Shown in pieces: positions 31,216 through 60,172 of a stretch of 64,000 nucleotides of DNA. Each line of letters starts with the position of its first letter. The first letter of the stretch is position 1. The DNA comes from Agelas oroides (Eukaryota > Porifera > Demospongiae > Agelasida > Agelasidae). The translations under genes were made by a program, and so were the position numbers. Where the stretch lies: the NCBI GenBank assembly GCA_949130485.1, contig OX422205.1, forward strand, positions 3,764,415 through 3,828,414, written 5' to 3'. Under the pieces are notes generated by a model that made no database searches, was not told the origin of the DNA, and saw nothing but the letters and a program-made list of their open reading frames with translations.

Positions 31216-31512
31216 TTTTGTCTCCTTTATTAAGGTAGCTTAGACTGGGTAATTCACCATGCAGCCATGCAGGAGCTGGCGCTCTGGCTATTGCACTGGC
31301 TATTGCACTGGCTTCACTGTGACCCATTAAAACTATAGGCTGTGTACGTTTAAAACTATAGGCTGTGTACGTAGCAGAAGAATCTCATGCTACCTTTGAG
31401 CAGACGGGTCAGCCCGGCTTATCTGTGATGCTTGAGAGAAAACTCTACTGCCCTCAGCATCCTGTAAACAACAGGTCTACACACTGTATGTAGCATGTGT
31501 ACTTGACCTAGG

Positions 31513-33122: not shown

Positions 33123-33209
33123 CCAGTGAAAGAATAACGTGTACTTGATTTAAACAGGAATAGTTTAATCGGCTGCATTTCCAGCTCTTTTCCATTGAAC
33201 ATTGATGTA

Positions 33210-34341
33210 GAGTAAGTTAGCAATCATCGGACGACAGGTATATTCGGACACTCAAACGCAGAGGGAAAACTGCGTAAACATTCGGCGATACCACAAGACT
33301 GTAGCTGAGGTACGTGGTACCTGGTGTACCAAAAATGACGCCCGCACATTGTTTCCTGTTGGCGCTAGAAGCGATAAAATGGCCGTCCGAAAAACATCAA
33401 TATTCGGAAAAGTGTATGTATTTTCAGACACTGTTGTTTGTGCCTTCTCTGAAGCTGCTTTTGGAGAGATTTTAGCATCGATACGATGCCCAAAGACCTC
33501 CCCAATTCGCAATATATTTTGGTAGCGGTAGCTGCTTTGAACACTCAGGGGCGTAGCTGAACATGGACCAGTCCGATCGATCAATAATCGGACGGTGAAA
33601 TTTGTCATTTCTTGCTGTGTTGTCTCCAAACAAGTTGAAGTCTCCACCATATTAGCATCAGTAGAATCTACAGGCTCTTGGCTACATGCTGGTACTTGTC
33701 CGGTGTTTGTGCGTTGAGTAGTTCTCGAGATATTGCACGATATCGTTTGAACTCACCTATTTATGCTGCACATAAATCAACCAGCGTACTTTATGGAAAG
33801 AAACATGAAATATATTTATATCTCGAGAACTACTCAACGCACAAACACCGGACAAATACCAGCATGTAGCCAAGAGCCTGTAGATTCTACTGATGTTAAT
33901 ATGGTGGAGACTTCAACTTGTTTGGAGACAACACAGCAAGAAATGACAAATTTCACCGTCCGATTATTGATCGATCGGACTGGTCCATGTTCAGCTACGC
34001 CCCTGATTGTTCAAAGCAGCTACCGCTACCAAAATATATTGCGAATTGGGGAGGTCTTGGGGCATCGTATCGATGCTAAAATCTCTCCAAAAGCAGCTTC
34101 AGAGAAGGCACAAACAACAGTGTCTGAAAATACATACACTTTTCCGAATATTGATGTTTTTCGGACGGCCATTTTATCGCTTCTAGCGCCAACAGGAAAC
34201 AATGTGCGGGCGTCATTTTTGGTACACCAGGTACCACGTACCTCAGCTACAGTCTTGTGGTATCGCCGAATGTTTACGCAGTTTTCCCTCCGCGTTTGAG
34301 TGTCCGAATATACCTGTCGTCCGATGATTGCTAACTTACTC
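33210..34341. mobile_element. Palindromic (fold-back) TA element, 1,132 bp
   Basis: Two arms of about 525 bases (33210-33734 and 33817-34341) are near-identical inverted copies around an 82-base loop. TA lies at both ends (33208-33209, 34342-34343). The undisrupted target is seen at 31800-31815. Each arm carries the same open frame in mirror orientation (containing MVETSTCLETTQQEM), with no recognised domain. The TA target suggests Tc1/mariner-type mobilisation. Confidence 0.85.
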
Positions 34342-34343
34342 TA

Positions 34344-34965
34344 GTCCATTTTGATATGGTCAACAACTTGGATATGGTGGAGACCAAGCATATGTGGACT
34401 CCAAGCACATTTTTGCTTTCACTAACCTCATTCCCAGTACACTGCATTGCAAGTGGCATGGGAACGAGCATTCACTTGAAGAGTGCATGCATAACAGGTG
34501 CACTTGAGGAAGGCACTTGGAGAGCAACCAAGGTTGCCCTCCAAATTCTCTCACTGAACATGGAAAAGAGGGTGCCCTCAGGCTGAATGACACCATTGGT
34601 ACAGAACAGAGAATGTGAGGGACGTTCTCTCAGACAAGGACCCTCTGGTCAGCCCACCCATCCAGACTCTGTTGCCAAGGGTGAGTCCCACATTTTGTTT
34701 GACTCGCTTGATGCCACCCTGACTAGTTGTGCAGCAGACCCCTCAAGCCTTGGTATACTTGGCTGGAGGAGGCTATGCACCTTCTTTTAAATCTGCCCCT
34801 GCCAGTCTGTTGCCACAGTAGCAAAGTACCTCTGTACCAGTCTTTCTGACCCTAAAAGCATTGCTCCTCTTATGGCCTACCTACTAATTGCTCTAAACAA
34901 GAATCTTGGTGTTCTTCACTCCTTCGGTGTTGGTGATGTTGCCAGACCAATCAGTGCTTGATCAT
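34344..34965 (+). pseudogene. Decayed reverse-transcriptase retroelement fragment
   Basis: Reading across frames, the plus strand gives LEEGTWRATKVALQIL, then a stretch ending in LGILGWRRLC, then DPKSIAPLMAYLLIALNKN and LGVLHSFGVGDVARPIS. This follows the order seen in a widespread invertebrate reverse transcriptase family, whose core reads like L-x-K-N-P-G-V-R-P-I-G. Stops and frameshifts separate the pieces. Element class was not determined; it could be a LINE or a DIRS-like element. Confidence 0.5.
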
Positions 34966-38489: not shown

Positions 38490-38579
38490 GTTCTAATTTA
38501 ACTGGACCAAGTGCTACTGGATTGATTACATTTACAGCCGTTTCCTGGGTTTATCCTGTGCTTGCATTTGGTATCTTCT
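38490..38579 (+). CDS. ROCO gene exon: membrane segment 1
   Basis: Acceptor aaccccag, donor gtaagt. 30 codons in phase 1-1: GSNLTGPSATG, then a hydrophobic segment to GIFC, the Cys codon being completed by the next exon. Confidence 0.7.
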
Positions 38580-41500
38580 GTAAGTACTTCATTAATGGTA
38601 TGCATTTGACACTTTTAACTCTTGATCAGGAATGTTGGAAAATTTGGCCCTATAGATCCAAAATACTGTATATCTAGGAACAGAATTAAGTTTGAAATTT
38701 TCAAGCATATATTTGATATCCACATATATGAATGATGAAAAATCAAAGCATTACAGATCTCTTTTGCAAAACGTGTCTGACCAACTGTGTCAGTGTCTTT
38801 CTCTAATACTACTACAACATACAAGTCACACAATTCTGAGTTGGTGACCAGAATGGTTTGGGGTCACAGCCCACCCCATTTGGTATACCTACAACATAGA
38901 TTGTAGAACACTCCTCAAAGCAAACCTTAGACATAGAATGGTCCCATTCTTTAAATATGTAGTGAATTATGGGTCGGCAGTTTACTGGGATTGAAAATAT
39001 TGTATGGTTGGTGGTAATTTTCATGGGTACAAATTTTTGTGAAACAGGCCAAAATTAAGGTTTCAGAAATTTTCGCAGTTTTAATTTTCACGGTTGGTGA
39101 ATCTGGGACCCACGCGTTAGCTGTACGGCTAAAAGGTGAGTGAATGTCTAGAATTGTCTACAGAGAGAGATGGCAATCTCAGTGCTTTGTTCCAGTATGG
39201 TGAGAGAAGTAGCCTCGTACCCAGGACATTTATAGAAATGAATGCTTCTGCTCTCGGCCTTGCGCCGCCATCCGGTTTATGTCTGTGCTTTACGTAGCAC
39301 TTCAATTTGGCTTGAGCGATAGCTGTTAAAAGCACACTCGCTGATATAGGCTTCTATTGGAGTTAGAAGAGCTAGAAAGTTTGAAGTAGGCTGGATTGAA
39401 AAGTGATTCGCTGGCTTTGCACGTGGACAATGAAAATTTCGCGGTTTTAATTTTCACGAATGGCTCTTGACTCGCAAAAAATGCAAAAATAAATCCCATT
39501 TTATTGTAAGTGTCTCACCCATTTACCCATAACTACCCCACCCTACAACCGTTTCAGCACCACATCTGTGTGATGGGAACAACAACTGTGCCAGCTGATG
39601 TTGGTCTTCCTCCATTTGACACAACAACTTCACTTAGCTACACGCAACTTTGTTCACTCTTTTTCTGACAGTACATGAGGTGTCTTTAGGAAGGCATGTT
39701 GGTCTCTCTGAACGTAGCTGCTTATGGCACGGATGTGTAGAACTCCACTCACAACATTAATGGGATGAATCAGTGAAAATAGTTGCACACCCTTATCTAG
39801 TTGTTCTATACATCTCCTGCACTTCTGTTGGTGTGTTTTGTGATATTAGTATTTGATTTGGTGTTGCACTTGCCAACCCAATACCATACTAATATTCCAG
39901 CTATGTTGTACATTGTGATTAGGGTGCAGCATATACATGGTAAGGTAACACGTATTTCTTTCTTTCATCCTTTATGTTAGGTATTGAGTGGGCAAGTAAG
40001 CTCTGTCTTGTGACTAGGAGGCAGACTAGCACCAAGTCCACTTTTGTTCGTATCTTTACTGCACTGACTGTCATTGGAATGATAGTAGGACTGGTGATAC
40101 TGGTGACTGGAAGTGTGCTGTCTGCACAAAATGGTTAGTATGCATGTCTTACGTGCCATGCTAAAATGTTAATTAAAACAGGTTTTATAGGAGGAATGAG
40201 TATACCACTAATTAAGTTTTGCTGATGATTTAGACCAAGACGAAAAATGGAAAGACAGAATAAGGTGTATTTTATTGGGCTACTAACTTCATTCTTGCTA
40301 CAATTACTGAAACTTGAATAGAGTAACCGATCAACTATCAGACACCCCTCATTATCGGAGGGCTACACAACACCAACGGAAGTAACAACAGCTATTGCTC
40401 TTGATCCAGTAGGTACGTACATAGGTTGATGCTACGTGCACCCCAAATTTGGACTTTGTAGATCAGTGGATGTGGACACTATTGGACGAAGCCACCGATC
40501 CACAGACGATGAGGTCCTATAACAGCGAGGGAGGCAGCACTGTCCACCAAACTTGGTTTGCAGCTTCAGCTATCCTTACTCTACACAGCCTCCATGCAAT
40601 ATCAGCGATTTCTATCATAGAGTTTATAGAACCTCGTCTCCGTCGATTGGTGGCTTCGTCCGTTGTTCGCGACCATCGGACACCGCCCTTTTTTGTGGTA
40701 TAGGGTCCACATCCACTGATCTATAAAGTCCAAATTTGGGATGTACGTAGCAGTTGCATCAGCCTACCTACTGGATCAAGAGCAATAGCCATTGTTACTT
40801 CTGTTGGTGTTGTACATATACAGCCGTCCAATAATGTGAGGGGTGTCCGATAATTAAATGGCTACTCTGCTTACATTTGTATCTATGCAGAAGACACTTT
40901 AGATTGTGTGGTCTGCTTGCTGGGTAAGCAGTTAGGGGATCTGGGGGCATGCCCCCAACTTATTTGAAATTTGATGCTCTCACATTGCTTCTGAGTTCAT
41001 TTTGTGACAATCTGATCTGCACAGCTCTGAGCACTGAGCACAGTCATTACTCTACTCAGGCAATACCCTTCACAATATGTTTCAGTCACTGGCTGACTCT
41101 GTACACATTGAGGGTGATGGCAGAGGCAGATCATGTGACAAGCTGGAACCAAGTGCAATACTAGGCCTAGTATTCAATAGGCCTACATGTATGCAATTAT
41201 CACATACCAGTAATGCAGTCACCATTTGATAAGTACTGCAATTGCACGGTTGCTTTCATGTTGGTGAGTATAGCTGCTTCCTCCGACTCTTCCTACCATC
41301 AGGAGTCAATTCCAATATAACTTCTCTGTACTCAAATCTGTGTTTTATACTGGAGATGGACCAGCATGTTCGTAGTGTTGCCTTTGTAGGACATTGCAGC
41401 TTACATGACTTGCATTGTAGTAGACGTGGTGCCTTTTATTCTTGCCCATCTCCAAAAACTTGCCAACTCAGGCAAGAAACCACGAAAAGGTCCAAACAGA

Positions 41501-44500
41501 AATTTAACCTTCTGCAATAGTCACTAGTCAGAATTAAGACCCAGAAGTACATACTACATTTTAGTGGTATCTTTCCAGGATTTGCTGAATGCTTTGCCAT
41601 ATATGCTAGAGGTCTTATCATGGAGAAAGGGAAGTAAACTAAGTAATGGATTTTACAGATAGTAGCTTGCCTCACTGCATAAAACCTAGCACTGCTTTCA
41701 AATCTGTGAAAGTCTGAGTACCAACTTACCAGCATGAAGTACAACCCACAAACACCCTCCACAAATGGTGTCTGCTGAAGCTGAAGTAGTCTTGTTCCCA
41801 GACTAAATTTTTCATGGGTAGTGCAGTCCCACAAACAATATGGTCCAGATTCTTATCCATTACACAGTGTTTCTAACCAATCAGATTGGGCTGAAGGTAA
41901 TTGTGTGTAAGTGTGAAGCATGGACAAATGTGCAGAGACAAATTCGAGGAGTTAGCAAACTCACCTTTGTTGATGAATATTGTCAGATGAAAGAGATGTC
42001 TTCGGTGGAGGACCTTCAGACCCTTTCTGATGAGCACCTGGTGAAGCGGAATGTACAGAACTTGAACTGCTTTGAGCTTCCACCATTAGACTCATAGTGG
42101 TTGAAGAAGCTCAGCCTTACTAGACTGTACTTGATTAGGATTAATCAAGCGTTTATACCTTGGATCCAGCATGGTGAATACAACAAACAGCGGCTTGTAA
42201 CAATCATCTCCAGGGTCAGTAAATTTTTTGAAGCCTACGATTGAGTTGTGACTGTTGGACAACAGTACTCATTATTCTAATAGAACGGTAGGGAATTAAA
42301 TAGTTTCAAATGTGGCTTCCGCTACATTAAATTTACAAAACTTCCAGGAATCCAATTTCTTCAGCTTGATTAGATCTACCACGAGGGGTCCGTCACGAAA
42401 GAAGTCTTGTACACCGTCAGCAGAAATCTAAGTGAAATCCAGAAATCCACTCTGAAATCCAGAAATCCACTGTGAAATCCTGAAATCCACTCTGAAATCC
42501 AGAAATCCAAACTGAAATCCAGAAATCCACTCTGAAATCCAGAAATCTACCTGAAATCCGGAAATCCAATTCAGGATTCTATTAAAATACTCCGCAAATA
42601 TCCGTATACTTTAAATTAATTACATCACCGGATTTACACAGACGTGCACGTGCACGGATTTTCTACATCAACGCACAACAAATGACCTTTGTACCCAGCC
42701 GATCTTAGGTCGGGTACAAAGGTCATTCTTCTGAGGTGATGTAATTTATAGTACATGTGTATATGACAATCAATGAACACGCAGCATGCGCATGTATATG
42801 TATGACAATCAACGAACACGCAGTATGGCGCATGTATCTGTATGACAACCAAACATGCAGTATGTGCATGTATATGTATGACAATCAAACACGCAGTATG
42901 CGCTGCGTAGCGGTGAAGTGCCTGTGACATTGTATTCTGTTAGCATCAAGGCTGAGAGGAATGTGGTTCATTGATTGTTCATGAGTATATTTTAGCTGTA
43001 TCTTGAGAATAACAAATACTAGAGATTCAAATGAAATCCAGAAATCCATTTTGAAATCCAGAGATCCAATCTGAAATCTGAAATCCTCGTGAAATCCAGT
43101 GGATTTCGAAATCTCGTACGCCGAGATGCGCCGTGGCGGACCCCTTGATCTACCACTGTAATGGGAAGCACATTTTCCAAGAAAAGCACTAGCCACGCAC
43201 AGATGCCTCTTCACCCCAAGGAGTGTTGCTTGCAGTACTAAATGAACAGCACTGAAGTGCAGAACCCTCGGTGCAAGCTAGATGATAAGTTGCCATATGT
43301 GTTCAGTTCTGTTCTTGCCTGTGCAAAGTCTGCTCACGTGTTTCAGAAGCTCTCTTACTCGATTTGCGGACTTTGTCTCTCTCTTTCGTCACTAATAACT
43401 CTTCCTCAGACAGTAGGGCTTTTCTACGTTTCATTGCGTTCTCAGGCTCCCAAACAGCAGTACACCATGCTTTCCTTTTCTTCGATGCGAAGGCATGGCC
43501 ACAGTCACAAACTGACCTCTTCACGTGCACTATGGTATTACACTGTGGGCATACCTTTCTCAGACGCATAGACCTAATCTACGGTATTACACTGTGGGCA
43601 TACCTTTCTGAACCTCTCGTAAAAGACAGTCACAAACGTCTATAAAGTTAGACGGAAAAACCGCGTGCTCCAACTCACATGATCACACATTACCATTATG
43701 TACGTGTTACGGAGAGGTATACGGAAACATTGCACGTGAAGAAAATGGCTGACTTAGTCGCGGTAAGTTTATAACGCTTCTAACTGAACTAAGCAGTTAA
43801 AGAGAAAACGGCTTTTTAATTTTCCGCGCTGTAGCCGCTGATACCTCTCGTTGGACGCCTAAAAGCGCGAGAAGGCAGAATAGAGAAAACAGACACACAG
43901 ACACACAGGACAACTACTGTAACCCTCGCGCATGCGCGCCGAGGGTTAATTACCATTGGCTTTCCCAGAAGTGTATATATAGGCTTCAGGAACTTCGATT
44001 GTCTGAGCATCGTTCTGTCTGCCGGGACTATTGCCCATACTTGTTTTGATAAGAACACGGTCTGGGTGCACTACTGCACCTCTGCAGTGACTTTACAAGT
44101 GTTGTTTTGATAAGAACGCTTCCTAGTGCACTAAGCAGACTCGTTCTGCCCTTGACTTAGCCTCATACCCAGGCCGCATGGGAGGAGAGAAACTGCCTGG
44201 TATTGACTGTTTGCGCATGCGTGATCACTCCCAGAAAAACCTTGGAATCCGTTTACGTTTGGAAATTGTCGGTAAAATCAATACGTATGCGTTCGATATA
44301 TTTCCGTATCATCGAAAGATGCAGCCGTTTTCCAGTTGAATTACCTTCAACTCCATGAAAGTAGAAGGTATATACGAAGGCAAATATGCTTTCTTGCGGT
44401 TACCAACCAGTTTTGGTAAGTCTGTACGCTACGAGGTGCTGTCATTTGCGTGCTTGACCGTAAACAAAGCGAGTTGGGTATAGCATAGATAGTAGCTACG

Positions 44501-47500
44501 CCATTGTCTTGTTAGTCTTGCTGTTGGTATCACTTATGATTGCCAAATTTATCGGTCTGGGTGAGCGTTGTTTTGTTGTAGCTCTTTTTCAGCTTTGTAC
44601 GTATACTACTTTCAAATATCTTGTCCGTATATTATTCCACGTGGAAAAGCTACGTAAACATTACAATTTTACAGAAATATAGCGGAAATGTCTGCGCACG
44701 TGCAAGCAGTCGACACCAGGCTGTTTCTCTCCTCCCATGCAGCCTGAGTACAAGGCTACTCGTGACTTCACAGTTTTGTTTAGCTAAGAACGCTTCGTGT
44801 TGTCTACTACTACGGCCTCTTCCGCTAAATTGGAATCACTCGAAAATAGTGCAGCTACCTTCTGCATAATTGGATCAACAAGAATTAAATTTCTTCCACT
44901 AGATTGGATCTACCGTTCTATTAGAATAATAACGGTATGTCTGAAAGGTCAGGGATCTTCTTCATGTCTTCTACCATTAAAACAGACTTTAAAAGTTGAA
45001 CTCCACCTACTGGGGCAATTTACCTATCAACTTTTTGTATCACAGTGATACAAAAGTTTTCTGTCGCTTTCGAAGTTTTATTTACTTGCTTCATTATTTT
45101 CCAAAAAGGAGTTTGAAACGTGTTAAATTTGATCATAAAAAGCTGAAGGTGTGTGCAAAACTGCTGAGATGTTTCCAAAATATTTGAATGCACGGTCATG
45201 CTCCAGTTTCTCTGTCTTCAAATCCTCCTTGTCCTACTGTTCTTCCGCAGACATGTCACTATCATCAGTTTCTTCATGTGCTGAATCATCATTCATTTAA
45301 GCAACTTGCCCCTTAATCATATTACTTCCATTGTCCTTGATAACAACGTTGAGTTTTGTAACAGGAATATCCCATTCCTGCTAGACTTCGTCTGCTATGT
45401 CTTTCGTATTTTCTGTGTGATGAGGATGAGGTAACTTCCGAACACCTAAGATCATGTCTGACAAAGATGGAGGGTGACATTAAACAGATGTCTGTAGCTA
45501 CCTACATTAACTTTTCTTGAACAGGTGCTTTCAAATCTGATCTGCTGGGTACTTGGAGTCTTTGGTCATATGTTTCAATTAGCAACTTGAACTCTTCATT
45601 TTCTACTTTTCTCAATAAAAGTGCATCGAAATGATTGTGGAAGGGTCAGCTGCCCTATTTCTGGGCCTGTTGACTTTCTCTTAGCCTTAAGTTCCTTGCT
45701 CTCTTCATTTCATCTTTCAATTTTCTACAGCAGGAAACACTCTGTTTTTAGGTGTTGTTTCAGGTTAGTTGTAAATTTTCCTGAAAGGGTATGTCCACAT
45801 GCTTGGGGTTTGAAGTAGATGCTTCACTTGAAAATTGACAAACACTTTTGTTGGTGTTTCCATCATATATAAAATGATCTCAAACCAGGCTCTTCCTGGG
45901 ATGTCCAAGACTTGTCACTGATGAATCATCGAATCTCTGGAGAGATGAAGAGGTGCTGAAGGGTCTTGGTGTCACTGAATATTCAATGAATCCAACTGAA
46001 TCATGTCTGGGAATGAAACTAACTTCATCTTTTTAGTTCATGATCAAATTTTTACAGCAATATGTAGTCTTAGTCAGAGTAATCTTTTTTAGTTTTAGTA
46101 TTATGTTAAGCTGTTACTAAAAACCATATTATGTGTAGCTGAAGTTTCTTCTACTCCTGCTTCACCACAACACTACCTGGGTCCTGAGATCCTTGTCCCC
46201 CTCAACCCTCAGCCATAGCCCAATGGCTTGTGTTTTCCCGCACATGAATGATGGTGAACTGGGAATGAGTGAGTGAACTGATCTTTCAGGCTTCTTTATC
46301 ATTATTGAGTAGACAGATTTCATGCTACAGGTGGAGTCACTCGGTTTCTAGTGCAGGAAGTCTAAGAAAGAGGCTATACCCTACTCAGGGAGAGAAGAAG
46401 GAAATATACCATGAGACATTCAGCAAACTGCCAGGAAGAGTCTTCAGCAACTAAAGCAAAACAAAAATGTTTCATGGGTGACACATCTGACTGTGGTTGT
46501 GTGTTGGTGTGGGAGAAGGTGTGTGGTTCCCTACTGATTGGGTGTCTTGATCTCTGACAACACTCACTTTGGGTGTGATTGTCTGTACTAGGATGAGTCT
46601 ATAGCTCTTCAGTTGGAAGTAAACAACTGGTATGACATTTTTCATCAATCTACTTGAATAATAATACTATAAGTATTCTACCAGTAATTACCGTGCTTGT
46701 ACAATGAACCTCATCATAATGATTGCACATGTATAATATGAGGAAATAATCATAAAATGGCCCTTGCAAATTTAAAAATACTTGTGTATCAAGATTCAAT
46801 CCTATGACTAGTGGTGCCTGGTAGAGCACTTTAACCCCTTGCATTTTCTTGAAACAGCACTCCAAAAAGAGCGACTCAGTGTCACAAGATCAATTCTCAT
46901 GAGATCAACTTGTCACAAGATCAACTCTCACGAGATCAATTCGCCATGAAATCAACTCAATTTTTTTAGGTTGAAAAACCCCAACAAACATGAAACACAT
47001 GTACTTAACCTAAAGTCCTTTCAGTGGCTTCTCAGTTGGCTGCATAAATGAAGAGAAGGTTATCTGTTACCAACTTTAGCTCGGAAAATAACTTGCCGAC
47101 GTTTCGACTGAATGCTCCAGTCGTCATCAGGGTGAAAGTGAAGAGGTGCGAACAAACGTTGCTATTTATAGCCATGCACTACTGAGGATACACGTCATTG
47201 GAGGTCAAAGGTCGGTGAGGATTGCTCCTCCCTCCCTGCTTCCTCGTCACAGCGGTCCAGCAACCAGGGACTTCCAGGAAGTCCTCCATCTTGGTTGAAG
47301 CGCTCCTCTGAGGGTGTCATCTGGATGTGCAGGGCCTCCTTCACCAACAGCTCCTGTCCTCTGCCATGGTCCAGCACTGTGGTCTCCTCCCAGTCGATTG
47401 GATGGTGATTCTCCCACGCATGCTCCGCTACAGCTGACTTCTCCATCATCCCCCTCTCGCAGGTATCTTGGTGTTCCTTCAGTCTCGTCTCCAGTCTCTG

Positions 47501-50500: not shown

Positions 50501-53500
50501 TTCCCTTATATACCTGTCTCGCCTCATCATTATGTTTTCTACCACTAGTTAACTGCCAACTTCTGGTTTGTGAATTTCAGCCACAAGCTGTGGAAAAGTG
50601 TGACTTTTAGTAGAATTTGCAACCATTTCACACCTTTTTTGTACCCTATGACAACAGCCATTCACATCTGAAGACATGGTCATGGGCATAGTTTCGTATC
50701 ACTAACAGTATATTTTGGTTTTAGACACATGCATACCCACACAGTGATTCTTCTGTATGGTATCACTACAAGTCCATACAACACATAATGATATCATTTT
50801 TTTATACTCTTGACTATTTACACAACATTTAGATGTGTTTTCTCTTCTCACACCAGGTTCTAATTCTACCATTATTGTTTCTCCTGGGCAAAGTACTACT
50901 CAAATTGCTGGAGAAACCCTTTGTGGCCTTGGTACTGGATTGCTGGTGTTTTTTCACTTCATTGCGTTTGTTGTGGTTATACTACATACTCGAGAATTTG
51001 ATGAAAGTAAAGTGACGAACAGGACCCAAATTACCAAAGGTGAGTTTGGGATGTCTCATTTGTTTGAGTGATACACTGTCCATCACTAGGAGTAGTGCTG
51101 TGTTTATGCAGTATCAGAGAGTCGATAGACTCTCTATGTAGGGATGGCGCCGACGCGCAATATATGCAATACTTAAGCAAAAGCCGTATAACTTCACCAC
51201 AAACACGCTAAAAGCTTATTTAAGCGCCCAGGCTTCCTCTTTGAGTGGCTTTGTGATCAGCAAGACTCATATAAGTGGCCAAAAGCCACGCGGAAGACAG
51301 CTAAACGCAAAAGTGTGCGGTCATGAAAGTGCCACTTTTCGTATTTTTCTTTCTTTCTTTCTTTCTTGTTAAGACCATTATGTTCAACAACGATATCTCG
51401 CAAACGGTTTAAGTACTCACCGTCATTTTAGCACGAAACTGATGCTTATCATAGCGCGGAGCTCTACGACCACTCAGCGTCTTCATAGCTTCAAATTCAC
51501 CCTGGTCAACTAAAGCCATTCACAACACTCTGAGGCTGCTGTCCGTTGCTTAGGACGCCATTTTTAATTTTGTACGCATGCGCACACGAAGTCTCGTTCC
51601 CAGACCAAAGACCACGGTCGTTGGTCTGGAAGCGAGACTAGTACACATGCGAAATGGCCAGCGGGCAGTACGCATGGCTGGCACGGTCTTTTCCCCCCGT
51701 GGCATTGGGCAAGGCTTATGAACACCACGTAGGTAAGCCTACTACACTAAAAATAGCCTACTCACAGCTTTAGTGAACTGTAAAGCTAGCATGGTAAGTT
51801 GTCAGTATGATAGTTTTCTGTGCTGCAGCCGGTCAGTCGTCATGTGATTGACAACTGAATCATGAAATTGGTTTCACAAAGTTTGGTAGGGAGAGCGGTT
51901 GGCCCTTCATCAGGTTCTAGCTGGCTATATTACGCATTATTATTACATGCCTGGAACTACTACTATTACTGTCAACGCCGTTTCAAGTTCTGGTGTTGTG
52001 GTTACACTTGAAATATTCTTCTTAGGCTTAGGTCTAACTGTAACAACAAAAAAATGGACAGAAACAAGACTTAAAAAACATTAGAAATGTAAAAAGATGT
52101 AGGGATGGCATGCCAAAAAGTATGCAAACAAGGTAGGGATAATGCATGAAAGCAAAGGTCAACATATTGGCAAAGCCCCATCCCTACATCTTTTTCACAC
52201 TGCAGTTAGACAGTGCATGGGGGTCTTCCTAAAACGTACCACAAGTTTACTCCAACCTTTACTGCCAGTTCATGGCTGTAGCCTCATTTTCAGGCCACTT
52301 CCTCCTTCCACGTGGCTAGTATGACCCCCTTGGTAGCATTATGTTATACAGAACCTCTTCAACAACTTAAGCAGTGAGTTAGAGTAGACTGCAGACTTAT
52401 GATAGTGTCGATCGTTAAAGTACATGGCATGGTTTTAGCCTCATCCCCAGGCCACCTTCCTTCTCCCACATGTCAGCTCAGGAGCGAGGCTAATATGATC
52501 TAGCAGCATTGCATCAGCTGTAGTGTGAAAAAGATGTAGGGATGGGGCTTTGCCAATATGTTGACCTTTGCTTTCATGCATTATCCCTACCTTGTTTGCA
52601 TACTTTTTGGCATGCCATCCCTACTCTTTTTACATTTCTAATGTTTTTTAAGTCTTTAATATATGAATTGTTACGGTGCTTCAAAGTAAGAACAAAATTT
52701 TTAGGCAAATGCATCAAATGAATTTACAAAGCACAGAAAAGGAAAGACTCAACACCATGCAGTTTTGCTTTCCATGTACTAGAAAATGTAGAACATTATG
52801 GGGGCGAGCCTGAGCAAGCTGATACAGGAACGGTGTTATATCTAACACATTAAGTCAAGCATCCTCCTACATGCACATCCATTCACCATTCACAGGGGGT
52901 TTTAAAAGTACTTTTTAAAAAAAAGTCAAATGAAAAGACATCCTATGCATGTATACACAATCAAATGCATAACAGTGCCAGGGGCTGAGATAAATGTGTG
53001 ATGCATATGCCAGTCGTTTCTCCAGCCAGGGCAGCTACTGTAGCTACACATGCATGGACTAAGCTCCACGCTCAAATCATGAGCTGAGTCTCTGGCGTAT
53101 ATGAGTACCGTTTATGCACGGACCTTACGGGCAGAAGCGACTTCAACCATCGTCCATAATTTACACCATTGTGAGCAGCCTGCATGCTGTTGAAGGTCCG
53201 TAGCTGTACAAAACCACGATTAAGTTGCCATGCGTGCTTCAACTTCAGTTGTCTTCGCTTCAGGTCGCCGACGCTGCACTCTGGCTGTAGCCTTCACCTA
53301 CGGACATTCAAAGCTTCGTAAAATACTTAATGTGTTAATTTAAAATTTACGGTATATGGCTGCAAGCAGACAGACATACACACGCATCTTTGCAATGTAG
53401 TCCCGCTAGTGTGGGGCTCGCTCAGGCTCGCCCCAATTAACTATCACATGATGTCTCTTCAACATTTTTATGGCTTCCAACAGTCTCCATATTCAGAAAC

Positions 53501-56500
53501 AGAACAAATGTATTTGGCCCTGTTACAATGCATGCTCTGTATTGTCCTGGGCAAGCGCCCACCCCCCAATTTAGACAGTTTTGGGGGTTTTTTTTAGGTC
53601 CTCTGTGTAACCGCCTACCATCCTAACTTCTTGCGTAGTGAATTGAAAGTAGGTCTGCTGAGCTCACGTACATAGCTGTGATCGTTCTGATGTGCTTCAG
53701 GTGCTACGACATCTGGCATCAAAGTTTCGCACACACCTGTCCGTAGCCTTGTTCATAGCGTTCTTCGGTTGCAGCACGAAATTTGCATACTGCAAGGGAC
53801 GAACACTGCGGAAGCTTGGCAACGAGGCTACCAGTCAGTCTGCTTTCTAGCACGATACAGCTTTCTCCATCGTCAGGTTGGCCTCGACGAAGCATGAGCG
53901 AAGCCGCGATGCAGGTTGATTCGGTACACCCTGGCAGCTAACTTCATATCCGGTGTGGGCACTTGCACGGGACAGTCGAATCATTCAAGCATTTCCTCTG
54001 TATAACTGCCCACCCCCAATGTTTGGTGCTTAAGCTACAAGCGCCCATGGGCGCTTACTGGGACAATCCAGTAAATACATAGAAGGAGAGACTTAGCACT
54101 TTTTACTTCCCCTAAATTAATTATCGTGTGATGTTGTTGCAGTATTATGGTTACAAACAGTCACCACAAAAAATGTTTGGATAAGTTTAGCCCTCCTACT
54201 TGAAGTTATGAGTCCAGACGCGTGCAGTGTAAAAGTAGGTCCCACCTGATAGCTAATCATGAGCATAGTCAACAGGCAGGACTCTCTAGCATTGCCGGAA
54301 AGTCTTTAAAAAGTGTTTGTTTTTTTGGCAAGCAAAAATTTTAGATAAATATAGCTACAAAACATCAAGCTAATGAGATTCACTGGAAATATCACTTTTA
54401 GATAGGATATAGTTTCTCTTCAAGTACTTTTCTTGGATTAGGAACCTTCCTGGAATTTATGAGAGCACTTTTGCATGGAAACAGTAACTTTTGGCCATTT
54501 TAGTGATGTGTCAGGGGCAAGCATTACTTTGAGATGTCATCAACCACAGCACGTGGCTAGGAGAACAATATGGATGCTGTCTTGGTTGACCTGCGTTTAT
54601 TAGCTCTAGGTGCATAGTGTGAAGTCTTACAGTTTATCTTAGTGGGACGCATGTTACGACATTGTGCAGTATCGAGGGCTGGCTTCCTGGTTACAGGGAG
54701 ATGATTGAAGTACTTCTGAGTTAGCTCTGAGTTGTAGTTGCTTGTTACATTATCCACGATGCCTAGTTGATGGAATTTCTAGCCAATGAGTAGTTTGAAT
54801 CTTGGAAATTTTAGCTTGCTGATGGTTTTCGGCATGTGGTGTACATTAATTTTGTGATATTATCTGTGACATCATGAAATTATCTGATGTGTAAGTCACA
54901 GGATCTTTGCTTTGTGGTAACAGGAAAAATTAATCCTATGCCTTACTTTTGCTGTTAATCTTTATTACCCAAAGAAATGGATGCGTCATATTCATTAGGG
55001 AAGTCAGCAGGGTTGAATCCCCAGCATTGCCAGTTGAAAGTGTTTTTACACCACAACTGGCAGAAGTGGGGATGACACTAAAAGTGAACTACATCTTGCT
55101 CAAAATTTCATAATTCTGAAAGAGCTATATGTGTCAGTAAGCTGCATGTAGAACACACGTACAGGGACCATATGTGTGGATACTACATGCACTGGCTTTT
55201 ATTTTCATGAGATATACCATAAGCTCCCAATAATACGCCCCCTTCAAACTAATGCCCTTCCCTCTCTTTACCTTCTAAGTTCTTAATGGGTATTTTTATT
55301 TGCTTAAATGACCAGTAGTGAATTCTTCTGGGTGTGCTTTTAGTACGCTTTGGTTACCTCTGTTATTGAGTATTTTTCCATAATCACTAGCCATGTCCAC
55401 AGGCCACCGCCTAGGTTTTCGTTGCTTGTGTGACAAGCTTACACGGGTCGTCCTGTCACCACTGATTATACAACTTGCTTTGATGCCTCTCGACTGTAAT
55501 AGTATCAACACAGGCACCAGTGAATTTCCCATAGTACGTGACTAGCAAAGCTGCCATTTTCCGGAAAGCGACGGCAGTCATCATTATTGTCCACCCTGTG
55601 TGTAACATCTTGAGAAACCAGTGGTATATACCGTATAGCGGGAAATTTTCGCCAGGAAAAAATTTCGCCAAAGCCTGCGCCTATGTATTGCAGGAAAAAT
55701 TTGCCAGATTTATTTTCACGCAGCGCCGGATTGGGCGAAATTAAATTCCAAATTTAACCCCTTAGAAACTTGTATGGTCAGCATGGCGCCAAGTGTGATA
55801 AGCGCTAGCTATCTAGTAATGACTGTAGGTACAAGAACCGGAGTCTGCGGAGAATTTTGCCATGGAGAACTTCGAAAAGGAATGTAATATACATGGCTAC
55901 CATGTATATAAGGAGATTTAGGAATCCGCCATTGGTGAGGAACTAGATTGTCGACGGGAGCCAAGCAACACTGTAGATCAATATGCTGTGGTGGTCGTTT
56001 CCCCGACTGGCGGGCCCACGATGTGGCGTGACTTGGATGTAGCGTAGTAAAGCCATTTGTTACAGCTAGTTAGTAGTCAAAGTAGAGTCTTCAGCACACT
56101 GAACACACTTGAACACTTCTGCAGTGTATGTAGCTAGCTTCCTTCACACTTTTTCCACGTGCTAATAAATTTTTCACCAGGCAAAATAATTAACCAGGAA
56201 AATTTTTCACCAGTTAAATTTTCGCCACTCCAAGCTAATGGCGAAATTGGCGAAAATTTACCCCTGGTGAATATTTCCCACTATACGGTAGTTAAGACTA
56301 ACCTCTCCATTTAGACTCGAAGTAGTGTGCAAAAGGGGGGAGCTCATTAATCGTGAGCTTACAGTATATGTATAGGAATGTTGTGTGACTGTTGAACATG
56401 TTTTTTCTTGTGTGCAGAAATAAAAGCCAGACTACGAATGCCAAAGTCACTGCTTGAGGAAGCCTTAAAACATGGCTTTGTAGAATGTCGAACAGTGGTA

Positions 56501-59500
56501 TGCCTGCTTGTTGGTGTGGCAGGGGCAGGCAAGACACATACCAAACACTTGTTATTCAGATGGGACCCTCCTGAGTGTAGGCACAGTACCCCCATAGCAG
56601 TGAGGCCAGTCCGAGCTGTCCGAGTCAGTACGCAAAGTGGCAAACTGCAAGAAGTTGACCCTGATCAACTAGATGAAATACTTGCAGCTACAGTGGCAAC
56701 TGGTGTTCCTCTGGAGAAGATTATTTCAGTGCAAAACCTTTGCTGCATTTGCGAAAATCACTCTACCAGTACAGGAATTAGTCCACCATCTGAAAATCCA
56801 CAATCACATGGTAGCACTGAAAGCCTACCTATCTCTAACAAAGAAAGCTGGTGTTGCTGCTGTCCAATTGCACATTCGCCTGACTCTCAACTGGAAGAAA
56901 TCACAAAATCGGCATTACACCAAACAACTTGTCTAGTTTCAGCCTCATCTGGATCAAAGCAACGTCTTGGTAGCGACTGGATATACCTCATCGATAGTGG
57001 AGGCCAGGTTGAATTCCTTGAAGTTCTGCCAGCCTTTCTCCAGAACACATCAGTATGCTTGTTCATCACTAAGCTGTCTGAGATGCTAAGTGAGCGTCCT
57101 CAAATCAAATATTTTAAAGATGGCAAGCTAGTTGGTGAGCACCCACTATGCCCCTTCACAAATGAAGAGATGCTCATGCGTTGTGTACAGACATTCCAAA
57201 GTCAGTGCATCCATCAAGATGACAGTACAAACAAAGGCTCACGACTTGTTATGGTAGGAACTCACCAAGATCTTGAAGACCAGTGCTCAGAAAGCAGGGA
57301 AGAAAAGAATCGAAGGCTCACAACATTACTTCATAAATTTGAGAAGAGTTTGGTTTTTCGTGGGCAAGAGATGAAGGAGCTCATCTTTCCTGTTAATGCC
57401 AAGACCCCAGGCCCTCAAGACCATGAAGTTGCTAGTGAGATAGCAAAAGTGACTTTGAATGCTGTATCAGGTGTGGAACCTCGAAAGACACCCATCAGCT
57501 GGTTTAAGTTTGAGCAAGTTATACAGAAAATAGCCAGCAGTGATCATGGGAGAAAGATTTTACATCGGGAGGAGTGCTTTCAAATAGCTCAAGTGTTCTA
57601 CCTTTCTGAGCAAGATTTTGATGCAGCTTTAGATCATTTGGCTAGCTTCGGCGTCATCCACTACTACCCCCACTTGCTACCAGATGTTGTGTTTATTGAT
57701 CCCCAGTACCTGCTAGACAGAATATCGGAGCTTGTCAGGTATCACTACAAGATTAGGCATGAAGCAGACCCCCGCACAGCCACAGGAGGAGAACTGGGGA
57801 AGTTCAGAAACGAGGGATGTATTACACTCAAGTTTCCTATAACGGAAAAGTTCTCACAGCAGTACACTAGCTTCTTTACACCAGTGGACTTTCTGGAGCT
57901 CATGAAAGATCGCCTGGTTGTAGCTCAGCTGATGGGTAAGGATGAATATTTTATGCCTTGCCTTTTACGAACAATGGAGTCCAAAGAAATTGATCAATAC
58001 CGAGTGGCATCTTCAGCATCCAGTGTGGCTCCGCTTGCCATTCACTTCTCCTGTGGGTATGTACCCCATGGTGTTTTCTGTTCATTGGTAGCTTATCTTC
58101 GGTCCCCGTCATCACAGAATAATTCCTCCTGGAGATTGTCTCCCAGTCCAGAAAGCAACACTGTACCATTGTGTTTGACTAGGAATTGCATCAAATTCCA
58201 GTTCCCAGAAGGTGCTCCAGGATCACTCACACTGATTGACGCATTCTCGCACTTTGAAGTTCATGTTAATGCACCACATGATGTATGCGCTTCTTTATGT
58301 CCATCCATTTGGCTCACCCTCTTTGAAGGCATTCAGAAAGCAGCAGAAACCCTCAAGTACTACCAGCTAGTTCCCAAGCTAGCCTTCCTTTGTAAACATG
58401 GAAGTGATTGCTACACTCAACATCTTGCACTTCCAGCAGATGCTCTCAACTACTGGAAGTGTGAACTTAACCCAGATACTGTATTTGGCTCTCTGACAGA
58501 TGAACACAAAGTGTGGCTTCCCAAGAAAGGTAATGATGTCTTGTGGATTTGTAGTTTTGTTCTAAAGAACTATGACATAGGTAACTATAAAATAGCTGGT
58601 ATTTTTCATGGGGCACTGAATTTGTTGTGGTTCTATTGGATTTACTCCCATTTCGTCTACTCCCATTTCGTCTACTCTACTCCCAATTCGTCTACATTTG
58701 CTTTTCAATACATAATGCTGTGAGAATAAAGAAAATGAATGATGGCAGAGTACACACTACATACTAAAATCCATTCACTTGCTATAATACTCTTCTAGTG
58801 TATAGTCTCCCCTTTCAAACTTTTCTCCAATTTTTGCAAGTCTCTTCTGTTTGTGTGGTACTTCTTGTGTTTCTCACTGCCCCACCCGCTGCCAACTGCG
58901 CCAGAGACACCTCTGTATTTGCCTGTTCTGTTTTGAATAGCTCCACCAGCTCAAAAATGTTAGGATGAGCCTTCCCAGCAGCACGGTTTATCTTGTGCCA
59001 CCCCTCCACATGTTTGTTTTGGGGCCTTCCATCTGGTAGTATTCCAGGTTTTGAGAGGGTAAGGTCTATTCAACCATCTTTCCTTGAAATAGCTTAGCAG
59101 TAACAGTAGTCCAAATGGGAGTGGACAAAACGGGAGTAGACAAAACGGGAGTAGACGAAATGGGAACATACCGTATTATGAATTGCTGGTTAAATTTTGC
59201 AAGTTTTTAACTGTCACCAAGCATGAAGTAGGCTAGCTAGTTTCTACCAGGTCTAGAAATGGGCACAATGGAGCCAAGTTGTGCAGTATTGACGTGCTTG
59301 TCATATGGACTAGTCTTGTAAGTGGAAGTGGACTGGCTTGTGCAAGACTAGGAACGTAGCAGGCTAACTGAGAGGGTAGGCCCTCAGAGTTTGGTAACTG
59401 TCTTGGGTAGGATGGGTATTGTAGCAGCAACATGTTTCATGGGCACAACTGTCTGTAGAACTACATGCACATTGATATGAGTCACAATTTTGTGGGCTAG

Positions 59501-60172
59501 TTTTTTGCAGATCCCATTCAACTACGAAAAATGCAAAAATATATATAACCCCCATGAAAAACACCTGCTAAGAAGGTAGTAGACATGTTTTTTCTGTACC
59601 TATACAACATTCCAGTACACCTTTTTTGGTTATATACAGGAGTGCAAGCACCCACTACACAGGTGCAGGCTGTAGTGGAAGGGCAGTCTGTAGTGGAAGA
59701 AGGTATGTGCATTGACTTCACTGATTAACACTATAATTAGTATTGAAGTGGTACACATTGCATCTGGATTTGTGTAGATTTTCATCTTTTTGTGATTTAA
59801 TTTTTACATTTAAAATGCAATGTCTGTGCTTTTTGTGTTGTCTGTGTAGGCTGCCCGACTGTACTTGAGTGCATCAAGTTCCGAGGGAAGGAGAGAACGA
59901 TCAATATTCCGCAGGAAATTGGCACCAATTACAGCCGGTTTGGCATCTTCATCCTAGATGACCCTAATGGAACTCGAGCACACAACATGGAACATGAGTA
60001 CAGAGGAAATGCTGAGCGAATCAACACAGAGATCCTACGGGAGTGGGCTGCTGGGAAAGGGAAGCAGCCAGTAAGCTGGGAAATATTGACAGAGGTGTTA
60101 CGGGATATTGAACTGTGCACTCTTGCCAGTGAGATCGAAAAAGTGAAGTTGTCACAAGCTATATCCCTCTAA
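38490..60172 (+). CDS. Multi-pass membrane ROCO-like GTPase with death-like domain
   Basis: Eight exons (38490-38579, 39981-40133, 50018-50146, 50359-50487, 50857-51039, 56418-58529, 59640-59702, 59850-60172) join in frame; every intron is phase 1 and GT-AG. The first five encode five hydrophobic segments with short loops. N-glycosylation-type sites (GSNLTG, GSNSTI) fall in loops predicted outside, and basic residues in loops predicted inside. The large exon carries G1 GVAGAGKT, G3 DSGGQ and G4 THQD, then a COR-like region. The last exon encodes a death-like domain. ROCO proteins are GTPases that dimerise through COR, and death domains recruit adaptors in apoptosis or innate signalling. A membrane sensor coupling to death-domain signalling is my inference. 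The first exon enters in phase 1, so the start lies further upstream. Confidence 0.78.
39175..39510. repeat. Dispersed repeat in ROCO intron, inverted copy of 32575-32945
   Basis: Shares long inverted stretches with 32575-32945; no coding potential of its own. Confidence 0.65.
39981..40133 (+). CDS. ROCO gene exon: cytosolic loop and membrane segment 2
   Basis: Acceptor tatgttag, donor gttagt. 51 codons, phase 1-1. Basic loop with LVTRRQTSTKST, then IFTALTVIGMIVGLVILVTG. Confidence 0.72.
40338..40850. mobile_element. TA element with long inverted arms
   Basis: Ends tcagacacccctcat and tcggacacccctcac are inverted and flanked by TA (40336-40337, 40851-40852). Arm similarity extends inward for about 150 bases. 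The interior frame is not credible as protein. Confidence 0.7.
41258..41520 (+). other. Weak exon-like segment with a hydrophobic stretch
   Basis: One frame reads DIAAYMTCIVVDVVPFILAH, then a basic tail. It lies in the long ROCO intron and might be a decayed membrane exon, but its phase does not match the neighbours. Confidence 0.2.
41840..42097 (+). other. Unrecognised 85-residue ORF
   Basis: An ATG-to-stop frame with ordinary composition, containing FVDEYCQMKEMSSVEDLQTL. No family was recognised. It could be a fragment of a mobile element inside the ROCO intron. Confidence 0.25.
42365..43145. mobile_element. Inverted-repeat element rich in GAAATCCA repeats
   Basis: gatctaccacgaggggtccg at the left is mirrored near 43125-43150. 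Inside are degenerate tandem repeats of gaaatccagaaatcca (42428-42575 and 43030-43115), a hairpin (42678-42726) and about four 40-base tandem units around 42780-42900. Confidence 0.55.
43303..43569 (-). CDS. Zinc-ribbon protein with Helitron-type ETxEQ repeat
   Basis: 89 residues on the minus strand. An N-terminal zinc ribbon (CPQC...CDCGHAF) resembles the small UPF0547-type ribbon. A basic region follows, then the start of an Arg/Glu-rich repeat (RASETREQTLHRQEQN) before a stop. The repeat style matches Helitron-associated N-termini. The sequence after the stop looks like a continuation broken by a small indel, so this is probably the 5' end of a degraded mobile element gene. Copy 1 lies at the left window edge. 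Confidence 0.5.
   Translation of the reverse strand: MRLRKVCPQCNTIVHVKRSVCDCGHAFASKKRKAWCTAVWEPENAMKRRKALLSEEELLVTKERDKVRKSSKRASETREQTLHRQEQN
43476..43781 (+). repeat. Segmental duplicate of 24-383
   Basis: Same orientation as the copy at the window start. It contains the zinc-ribbon start on the minus strand and the plus-strand ATG at 43745 with its donor at 43763. Confidence 0.65.
43917..43948. repeat. TTAA-CCCTCG family end fragment
   Basis: Palindromic segment with ccctcgcgcatgcgcgccgaggg, next to TTAA. Related to 19646-20508. Confidence 0.5.
44158..44758. mobile_element. TAGCCTCG-family element, about 600 bp
   Basis: Ends tagcctcatacccaggc and the mirrored right end share about 70 bases. 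Flanks cccttgact and ctcgtgact look like a decayed nine-base target duplication. Confidence 0.7.
45000..45900 (-). pseudogene. Decayed hAT (ZBED-like) transposase
   Basis: On the minus strand, across frames, a BED finger can be read (DHFIYDGNTNKSVC, then GKFTTNLKQHLKTE). Further on come VRKLPHPHHTEN, EWDIPVTKLN, a KDNGSNM motif, an acidic stretch and KTEKLEHDRAF. This order is typical of hAT transposases of the ZBED group. Stops and frameshifts are frequent, and the C-terminal dimerisation region is not seen. It lies in the long ROCO intron, antisense to the host gene. Confidence 0.6.
45901..47044. other. No gene seen
   Basis: AT-rich intronic DNA with short unrelated frames. Repeated gagatcaac/cacaagatcaac motifs occur at 46880-46950. 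Confidence 0.4.
47101..47131 (-). ncRNA. Hammerhead-like motif of the Penelope element
   Basis: The minus strand shows CTGATGA (47124-47130), a hairpin whose stem is GACTG/CAGTC, then GAAAC (47101-47105). These are the conserved core blocks of hammerhead ribozymes, which Penelope-like elements are known to carry. One extra C sits between CTGATGA and the stem, so activity is uncertain. Confidence 0.55.
47195..47704 (-). pseudogene. Penelope GIY-YIG endonuclease domain
   Basis: About 169 residues. The linker VIPYVAGMSEDIRRV leads to a Cys-containing YHIPCSCGQVYIGETRQRL (the GIY-YIG core) and RLKEHQ, then AEHAWENHHPIDW, ending in a stop. This nuclease nicks target DNA in Penelope-like elements. 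The frame differs by one base from the reverse transcriptase upstream, so the original single ORF is broken near 47700. Confidence 0.8.
47698..48234 (-). pseudogene. Penelope reverse transcriptase, C-terminal part
   Basis: About 178 residues with the catalytic LWKRYVDDTFCI, followed by FLDTLLRRREDGSL and VYRKPTHTDRYLHF, as in Penelope-type polymerases. Sequence upstream of about 48235 does not continue the domain. The C-terminal end runs into a shifted frame at the junction with the nuclease. Confidence 0.82.
48888..49076 (+). pseudogene. Helitron-type N-terminal repeat fragment
   Basis: An Arg/Glu-rich frame (ERRKELARLRKRRQRERDG, then REQARIHQQTSRARETS) resembles the charged repeats at 35494 and 43303. 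No downstream Rep or helicase is present. Confidence 0.4.
49071..49352. repeat. 141-bp tandem duplication
   Basis: Two nearly identical units starting gcataaggcactgagtatct. Confidence 0.9.
50018..50146 (+). CDS. ROCO gene exon: membrane segment 3
   Basis: Acceptor cacactag, donor gtttgt. 43 codons, phase 1-1. Outside-type loop GDSTDTAALNTEG, then VLLILSAVISLLVVIVLTAA. Confidence 0.75.
50359..50487 (+). CDS. ROCO gene exon: membrane segment 4
   Basis: Acceptor ttctccag, donor gttagt. 43 codons, phase 1-1. GRKTACAAAV, then a hydrophobic segment with PGILPGILSVIGVAIL, then an acidic loop ending ITN. Confidence 0.75.
50857..51039 (+). CDS. ROCO gene exon: membrane segment 5
   Basis: Acceptor cacaccag, donor gtgagt. 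61 codons, phase 1-1. Begins GSNSTIIVSPG, similar to the GSNLTGPSATG start of exon 1. A hydrophobic segment follows (LLVFFHFIAFVVVILHT), then a charged juxtamembrane stretch ending QITK, which joins EIKARL of the GTPase exon. Confidence 0.8.
51105..51175. repeat. Inverted copy of the repeat at 383-442
   Basis: Matches the reverse complement of 383-442, including agagagtct and the segment with atattgcgcg. Confidence 0.6.
51595..51642. repeat. Short hairpin element with GTCTCGTTCCCAGACC ends
   Basis: gtctcgttcccagacc is mirrored by ggtctggaagcgagac within about 45 bases. Confidence 0.6.
51905..52084 (+). pseudogene. Decayed duplicate of a ROCO membrane exon
   Basis: After an acceptor (catcag) the sequence starts gttctagct, like the other GS-type exons. 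In phase 1 a stop arrives after about 33 codons. A second frame gives a hydrophobic VVVTLEIFFLGLGLTVTT and then runs into the inverted end of an inserted element. It looks like a broken relative of exon 50857-51039. Confidence 0.3.
52065..52665. mobile_element. Long-TIR element inside the ROCO intron
   Basis: About 135 bases at 52065-52205 (with aaaaagatgtagggatgg) are mirrored at 52520-52660. The interior holds TAGCCTCG-family remnants. Confidence 0.7.
52780..53440. mobile_element. GGGGCGAGCCTGAGC-family MITE, longer copy
   Basis: Same ends and interior as 5253-5750, with about 160 extra bases inside. A third partial interior copy lies at 63590-63700. Confidence 0.65.
53543..54068. mobile_element. 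Inverted-repeat element with ATTGTCC...AAGCGCCCA ends
   Basis: The left end attgtcctgggcaagcgccca is mirrored near 54045-54068. No coding sequence recognised. Confidence 0.5.
54069..55630. other. Intronic stretch, no exon seen
   Basis: Non-coding in all frames examined. Part of the 5.4-kb intron before the GTPase exon. Confidence 0.4.
55631..56288. mobile_element. CCATATAGCGGG-family TA element upstream of the GTPase exon
   Basis: Ends ccgtatagcgggaaatttt and its mirror are flanked by TA (55629-55630, 56289-56290). It ends 129 bases before the large exon. Inside are further repeats of the type aatttttcaccag. Confidence 0.7.
56418..58529 (+). CDS. ROCO gene exon: GTPase and COR-like region
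   Basis: 704 codons in phase 1-1; acceptor tgtgcag, donor gtaatg. Approximate positions in the exon: G1 GVAGAGKT at 34-41, a Cys-rich insert with NLCCIC and WCCCC between about 110 and 155, G3 DSGGQ at about 192, G4 THQD at about 281, and an RRQ-like helical COR region with winged-helix character (REECFQIAQVFYLSEQDF, then GVIHYYPHLLPDVVFIDPQY) from about 355 onward. The THxD form of G4 and DxGGQ form of G3 suit ROCO proteins better than NACHT. LRRs, common in ROCO proteins, are absent. Confidence 0.82.
58645..59168. mobile_element. Inverted-repeat element built of 15-bp units
   Basis: Tandem ctcccatttcgtcta units at 58645-58695 are mirrored at 59108-59165. It lies about 115 bases after the GTPase exon donor. 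Confidence 0.65.
59640..59702 (+). CDS. ROCO gene exon: short linker
   Basis: 21 codons, phase 1-1, acceptor tatatacag, donor gtatgt. Val/Glu-rich linker between the COR-like region and the death-like domain. Confidence 0.6.
59850..60172 (+). CDS. ROCO gene terminal exon: death-like domain
   Basis: 107 residues to TAA 60170-60172, acceptor tctgtgtag, phase-1 entry. Helical pattern from ITIPQEIGT-like start (INIPQEIGTNYSRFGIFIL) through NAERINTEILREWAAGKGK and SWEILTEVLRDIELCTLASEI. The LREWAxGKGxxPVSWExLxxVLRxIxL pattern is typical of a death domain. Confidence 0.75.

Follow-up and report, generated by a model that had tools for sequence, protein, structure and literature searches.

The Roco family is divided into three groups, in which a Roc GTPase and a COR domain are combined with leucine-rich repeats (LRRs), with LRRs and a kinase, or, as in DAPK1, with a death domain (PMC6337361, PMC6320773). 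Its members, including the Parkinson's protein LRRK2, are largely cytosolic and are recruited to membranes (PMC6337361), and "transmembrane" appears nowhere in the main text of these two reviews; both, like the other articles cited below, were available to us in part, and what we report of them refers to those parts. We analyzed a window of 64,000 nucleotides from the sponge Agelas oroides (the whole stretch of DNA considered here; GCA_949130485.1, 259 Mb in 141 contigs; contig OX422205.1, positions 3,764,415 to 3,828,414 of the forward strand, or C23:3764415-3828414) and describe a predicted gene at positions 38490–60172 of its plus strand, in which a multi-pass membrane module precedes a Roc-COR GTPase and a C-terminal death domain. 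It appears to be one gene of an expanded family in which the order membrane module, Roc-COR, death domain recurs, and we are highly confident that this is the anatomy of one functional gene. By its Roc-COR core, the predicted protein is assigned to the ROCO family. It resembles the DAPK1 type in having Roc-COR followed by a C-terminal death domain and no LRR (PMC6337361, PMC6320773), and appears to differ from the DAPK group in that five membrane helices occupy the N-terminal place of the kinase and ankyrin repeats of DAPK1 (PMC6320773). None of the window's 45 best phase 1-1 exons was noticed to encode a kinase, and this phase was the only one scanned for internal exons. To our knowledge, no membrane-spanning part of DAPK1 has been described. 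LRR-Roc-COR proteins (bacterial Roco proteins, MASL1 and LRRK1/2) share the Roc-COR core, and the Roc domain of LRRK2 is the best solved-structure match of the family, whereas the window gene has no LRR or kinase match and instead combines the core with a membrane module and a death domain. An earlier note on this stretch, made from the letters alone, had stated that its author knew of no named family in this order; this agrees with the two Roco reviews and with an incomplete literature search that took in neither subscription journals nor large protein databases, and an unnamed database entry with this order may well exist.

The earlier note had also proposed eight exons that splice in frame, with five hydrophobic segments. 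The eight exons all have AG/GT ends, every junction is in phase 1, and the joined sequence comprises 1,060 codons with a single terminal stop (one G being assumed ahead of exon 1). Exon A (exon 1; 38490–38579), the first exon found, encodes an outer stretch with an NLT sequon and transmembrane helix 1, and has a second in-frame donor at 38597. Exon B (exon 2; 39981–40133) contributes a basic inner loop and helix 2, exon C (exon 3; 50018–50146) an outer loop with the pattern EGxxGRVLLI and helix 3, exon D (exon 4; 50359–50487) helix 4 and an outer loop with SSF ... Q..NG, and exon E (exon 5; 50857–51039) an outer GSNST sequon, helix 5 and an inner juxtamembrane stretch. Exon 6 (56418–58529) encodes the Roc GTPase with motifs G1, G3, G4 and G5, a long insert between G1 and G3, COR-A and a following region; exon 7 (59640–59702) is a linker of 21 codons, proposed from splice signals, phase and codon score alone and the least certain of the eight; and exon 8 (59850–60172) encodes the death domain and the stop codon. 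The gene spans 22 kb, with introns of 10 kb and 5 kb: intron 2 (40134–50017) measures 9.9 kb and contains minus-strand open reading frames at 47195–48258, and exon 6 begins 5.4 kb beyond exon E. A scan for strong phase 1-1 exons containing a hydrophobic 19-mer returned exactly the five transmembrane exons between 38001 and 51400, exon A with its second donor at 38597, whereas 60 Markov-shuffled copies yielded 0.12 on average and never more than 1, under thresholds that were fixed after the exons had been seen; elsewhere in the window, the same scan returned one more exon on the plus strand (12477–12731) and none on the minus strand.

Position 38490, given earlier as the start of the gene, is not its start. 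Because exon 1 has no start codon and opens at a phase-1 splice acceptor, the gene should reach further upstream. No upstream ectodomain exon was found in scans of the window, and a candidate first exon at 32484–32544 was weak in these scans and is not claimed. A first exon was also sought by comparing the upstream DNA of two related genes, described below as L002 and L009, and none was established. This comparison revealed a block of approximately 330 bases, 83% identical between the two genes, upstream of exon A (L052:4820-5154 in the L009 gene and the matching L053/L050 stretch in the L002 gene), with a perfectly conserved core of more than 40 bases; a first exon or a promoter may lie within it. 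Since the block has no counterpart in the window and shows no consistent splice phase, no first exon is claimed.

We used the Roc-COR exon as a query against the same genome. With 63 of the 239 candidates scored, at least 72 matches reached E ≤ 1e-5, of which 30 were fetched as loci. The 72 matches comprise the gene itself, 14 close paralogues (L002–L015; 65–71% identical in the Roc-COR exon, L015 being matched in two pieces) and 56 distant matches (30–45%), some of which are pieces of one gene. Twelve of the close paralogues lie on contig C11 and one each on C20 and C1. Upstream transmembrane exons in the order A-B-C-D-E, or in part of that order, accompany 11 of the 14 (a single exon for L010), and none were found for L005, L011 and L014 by membrane-part queries of the genome. 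The death-domain exon follows downstream in 12 of the 14, at 0.6–4.4 kb in 11 of them and at 11 kb in L007, and was absent from the matches listed near L005 and L013. Furthermore, a distant paralogue on contig C7 contains Roc-COR and the death domain within one uninterrupted frame of 826 amino acids. The phase-1 ends fit in the paralogue exons that were read; an earlier acceptor of the same phase was favored by the scan in three cases, namely, exon C of L012, exon C of L013 and exon E of L006. The death-domain exon itself is very numerous in the genome, with 150 matches at E ≤ 0.001. Some of its copies sit in long frames (582–1804 amino acids), which suggests other fusions.

The G1, G3 and G4 motifs reported previously are present in exon 6 as GVAGAGKT, DSGGQ and GTHQD, together with a G5 motif, VNAK, and approximately 150 residues separate G1 from G3. 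The core residues of all four motifs are invariant across 27 aligned members, namely, the 30 fetched loci excluding L023, L026 and L027, whose frames are interrupted. When a profile of these 27 members was compared with solved structures, the best match was the Roc domain of LRRK2 (E = 0.0089), with the G1, G3 and G4 stretches aligned in order, followed by Rab6 and then by more LRRK2 entries. Pfam Roc was recognized in 12 of the 27 members (best E = 3.8e-5), COR-A in 10 (best E = 2.2e-8) and AAA_22, another P-loop family, in 14 (best E = 0.0035). The COR-like region of the earlier note corresponds to a COR-A match at residues 358–444 of the window protein (E = 9.1e-8; 32.6 bits, under the Pfam cut-off of 35.3), and the COR-region query matched no solved Roc-COR structure. 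The death-like domain proved recognizable at the level of the family: for a seven-member profile, the closest solved sequence was the FAS death domain (E = 2.2e-5), and Pfam Death matched all seven members (best E = 1.7e-4). Neither LRR nor NACHT was matched in Pfam searches of the window and the members. Relatives of exon 6 were found neither in scans of viral contigs and other genome contigs nor among phage records, and exons 6 and 8 had no match in NCBIfam or PADLOC.

For the membrane module, we compared exons C, D and E of the window gene with those of nine of the 14 close paralogues, and the same ten genes were used for the analyses of selection and trees of this module; for L005, L006, L010, L011 and L014, a full C-D-E set was not obtained, and these were left out. 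The best 19-residue core of each exon was taken as membrane-spanning. The outer loops contain 15 lysine and arginine residues in 519 (2.9 per 100), versus 63 in 350 (18.0 per 100) for the inner loops, and 22 N-glycosylation sequons fall on the outer side versus one, belonging to the window gene, on the inner side. Because of this distribution of charges and sequons, exons 6 and 8 are placed in the cytosol, and the N-terminus is predicted to lie on the outer side as far as the exons seen extend. The outer loops between cores measure 13–39 residues in the ten genes. The outer-loop residues of exon C (EGxxGRVLLI) are invariant in all nine aligned exon C sequences, and mean pairwise identity in this exon is 88% in the outer block versus 44% in the inner half; identity is 95% in the SSF block of exon D and 64% in the block of exon E. 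The pattern given above for exon D comes from an alignment of six sequences. The fastest-changing parts are the inner halves of the helices and the inner juxtamembrane stretch. A diverse extracellular ligand site is thus unsupported by the exons seen, since the outer loops are short, their motifs are conserved and the inner parts vary. No named multi-pass family, tetraspanins included, approached the Pfam cut-off for the 228-amino-acid membrane part, for which the best match was to an unrelated N-terminal domain (E = 0.023).

The number of four-helix cassettes differs among the genes. The window gene has one cassette (A-D) and the closing helix E. The L009 gene contains A-B-C-D, A'-B'-C'-D' and then E, which gives up to nine helices; its exon A' (L048:1489-1605) is only moderately hydrophobic, and exon A of the window, judged by eye, looks nearer to A' than to the exon A of the first cassette. 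The L002 gene has a second exon C and a partial second exon B, and upstream of L006 there are enough exons for two cassettes, spread over 45 kb; we infer that the extra exons form part of a single gene in L002 and of a single gene in L006.

Purifying selection on exon 6 is evident against each of the 14 close paralogues, with ratios of nonsynonymous to synonymous substitution rates (dN/dS) of 0.25–0.35 for the window gene and a median of 0.33 over 105 pairs. The death domain is also under purifying selection (dN/dS of 0.20–0.29 between the window and the five paralogues read, and 0.27–0.65 among those five). In the 45 pairs formed by the ten genes, the median dN/dS was 0.89 for membrane exons C-D-E versus 0.31 for Roc-COR, and dN was greater in the membrane exons than in Roc-COR in 43 of the 45 pairs; the membrane values are pairwise counts over 117–148 codons of gapped alignments, in which the first cassette stood for L002 and the second for L009. 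We do not claim positive selection on the membrane module, as free exchange among hydrophobic residues can give a dN/dS of approximately 0.9. The two exceptional pairs were L012/L013 and L004/L015, with dS values of 0.03 and 0.14, respectively, in the membrane exons versus 0.48 and 0.49 in the Roc-COR exons. The membrane tree paired L012 with L013 (support 100/99), whereas the Roc-COR tree paired L008 with L013 and L012 with L015 (both 100/100); the remaining branches were mostly weak in both trees. These results indicate separate histories of the membrane exons and the GTPase, because the trees conflict at strong support and the dS values differ. The route of exchange between paralogues appears to be gene conversion or exon shuffling, and the shared phase 1 would leave the frame unharmed when membrane exons are exchanged.

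Several observations weigh against the reading of one functional gene with this order. The eight-exon model is a prediction from genomic sequence alone, and neither a start codon nor an N-terminal ectodomain appears in the exons found. Pfam Roc was not recognized in the window protein alone, and with the G1–G3 insert removed, the Roc match reached only E = 0.22; the window death domain alone was weak (E = 0.03–0.06, below the Pfam Death cut-off). The Roc and death homologies thus appear clear only with family profiles. AlphaFold models of exons 8 and 6 as single sequences were uninformative (mean pLDDT, the predicted local distance difference test score, of 37.3 and 34.5, respectively). In the youngest pair, L011/L014, dN (0.023) exceeds dS (0.013), so not every copy need be constrained. 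The high dN/dS of the membrane exons belongs here as well, as do two features that would fit a division of the locus into two adjacent genes, namely, a small multi-pass membrane protein (38490–51039) and a cytosolic Roc-COR-death protein starting in exon 6. In L004, L005, L008 and L013, an in-frame methionine lies just ahead of the exon 6 acceptor, from which a shorter protein with an unspliced start is conceivable; and at L068 (C11:3173200-3183100), orphan D and E exons have no Roc-COR match in the next 9 kb and may be a relic, part of a longer gene or exons of a gene with a different partner. The 5.4-kb gap between exon E and exon 6 and a methionine eight residues into exon 6 of the window gene would also suit two genes. 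However, this methionine is missing in all 14 close paralogues, and in 10 of the 14, the stretch from the last upstream in-frame stop to the P-loop contains no methionine; exon 6 therefore cannot supply the start in most members, and an upstream exon is needed. Moreover, the phase-1 acceptor of exon 6 recurs in the close paralogues and is compatible with the phase-1 donor of exon E, and transmembrane exons stand upstream in 11 of the 14. We consequently regard two separate genes as highly improbable. It is also very unlikely that the locus is a decaying family relic swollen by transposons. The long introns (10 kb and 5 kb within 22 kb), one of which contains reverse-transcriptase-like open reading frames, would be expected of such a relic, as would the single cassette found here compared with two in L009 and parts of two in L002 and L006, but 1,060 codons are open, the splice sites are intact, the G motifs are retained and the dN/dS of exon 6 is low against each of the 14 paralogues.

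A more serious competitor concerns the helices. If they were a plain membrane anchor, the protein would be a DAPK-like Roc-COR-death scaffold that answers the cytosolic GTP level or cytosolic partners, with no transmembrane sensing. The short outer loops and the lack of an upstream ectodomain exon among those found are consistent with this explanation, and the median dN/dS of the transmembrane exons is what would be expected if hydrophobicity alone mattered. However, the outer-loop motifs of exons C, D and E are kept beyond what hydrophobicity asks for, and an anchor would not need the second cassette of one paralogue or the parts of a second cassette in two more; we consider the plain anchor unlikely, although it deserves to be kept in mind. 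The hydrophobic cassette might instead be a GTPase-gated channel or pore, with the death domain serving assembly only. Repeated four-helix cassettes are compatible with pore architecture, but the membrane part has no match to a channel or transporter family in Pfam, and a pore is, in our estimate, extremely improbable.

The explanation that we prefer, the anatomy described above together with a signaling role, seems reasonably probable as a whole; for the signaling mechanism taken by itself, our confidence falls a little short of an even balance. The product would be a multi-pass protein with helices A-D and E, followed inside the cell by the Roc-COR GTPase and the C-terminal death domain. The helices might react to a neighboring chain or to some signal located at the membrane or within it, and this response, together with the bound nucleotide, would alter the pairing of Roc-COR domains on adjacent chains. 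In a bacterial Roco protein, a monomer-dimer cycle follows the nucleotide state (PMC6337361), and GTP could for this reason decide whether the death domains stay assembled; once clustered, they would attract the death-domain adaptors that act in innate immunity or cell death. The earlier reading of a transmembrane sensor that signals through a death domain is accordingly retained in part: the fusion and its order (11 of 14 upstream and 12 of 14 downstream) and the cytosolic position of the GTPase, indicated by the loop charges, stand, and sensing and signaling are carried here as conditional steps. Recruitment of adaptors is a general property of death domains. A further and rather doubtful extension is that the family forms a modular receptor repertoire, in which phase-1 four-helix sensing cassettes are duplicated within genes and swapped between genes with a common, constrained Roc-COR-death output. 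If true, many receptors would use one signaling end, and the family would be a candidate immune or self-recognition system of an early animal lineage that relies on a GTPase switch, not on a kinase or TIR domain.

Other receptors share parts of this arrangement. Death receptors of the Fas and TNF-receptor type are also membrane proteins with a cytosolic death domain. Fas is a single-pass protein with a cysteine-rich ectodomain and no GTPase, whereas the window gene has five transmembrane exons, and no cysteine-rich exon was noticed among those found. In the sea anemone, which belongs to an early animal lineage, Roc-COR has entered lineage-specific combinations with death or TIR domains: NG1 consists of LRR, Ras/Roc, COR and TIR_2 and NG3 of kinase, death, TIR, Roc/COR and SH3 domains, although no multi-pass membrane module is mentioned for them in the part available (PMC5094078). 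The transmembrane NLRs of sponges and anemones are similar in being NTPase immune receptors with a transmembrane part, in some cases with death domains, and in forming large lineage-specific families, but they have NACHT and LRRs where the window gene has Roc-COR (PMC12909245, PMC5094078); membrane-bound NLRs are reported in sponges, and the abbreviation COR appears in a figure of NLR-annotated architectures (PMC12909245). Brown-algal ROCO genes likewise have N-terminal exons of a single phase that are shuffled, but these are LRR exons in phase 2, with no membrane-spanning module mentioned in the part available, unlike the phase-1 membrane exons of the window gene; the same article cites ROCO genes of placozoans that contain CARD and death domains (PMC11378527). 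In Amphimedon, large death-fold expansions are described, and the membrane-Roc-COR-death order is not mentioned in the part available (PMC8195603). A Roc-COR built into a multi-pass protein would allow a direct test of membrane signals on the Roc-COR dimer, for which natural swaps of membrane and output parts between genes are available for comparison, and would add a GTPase-based route to death-domain signaling in an early animal lineage.

The window contains other features, most of them repetitive. The two minus-strand frames inside intron 2 (47195–48258) had no Pfam match and resemble the reverse transcriptase and GIY-YIG regions found in Penelope-like elements. A 652-amino-acid transposase frame at 15527–17485 on the minus strand (DDE_1, E = 2.6e-25, with HTH_Tnp_Tc5 and HTH_psq) is one that we take to be pogo/Tigger-like, and a 342-amino-acid transposase frame at 23777–24805 on the plus strand (DDE_3, E = 4.7e-22) is presumably Tc1/mariner-like. 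At approximately 12952–14700, a minisatellite built of 30-base units (49 overlapping register copies) is open in several frames on both strands. An inverted repeat at 33183–34368, with 551-base arms that are 97% complementary and an 84-base spacer, is flanked by more inverted arms at 31510–31720 and 34432–34644. A frame at 43306–43578 on the minus strand gave a weak UPF0547 match (E = 2.8e-4, below the cut-off), and a dispersed repeat is shared between 24–384 and 43482–43785 (97–98% identical in two blocks). Finally, a phase 1-1 exon candidate at 9073–9444 on the plus strand encodes the C-terminal part of a class C G-protein-coupled receptor (Pfam 7tm_3, E = 1.1e-12).

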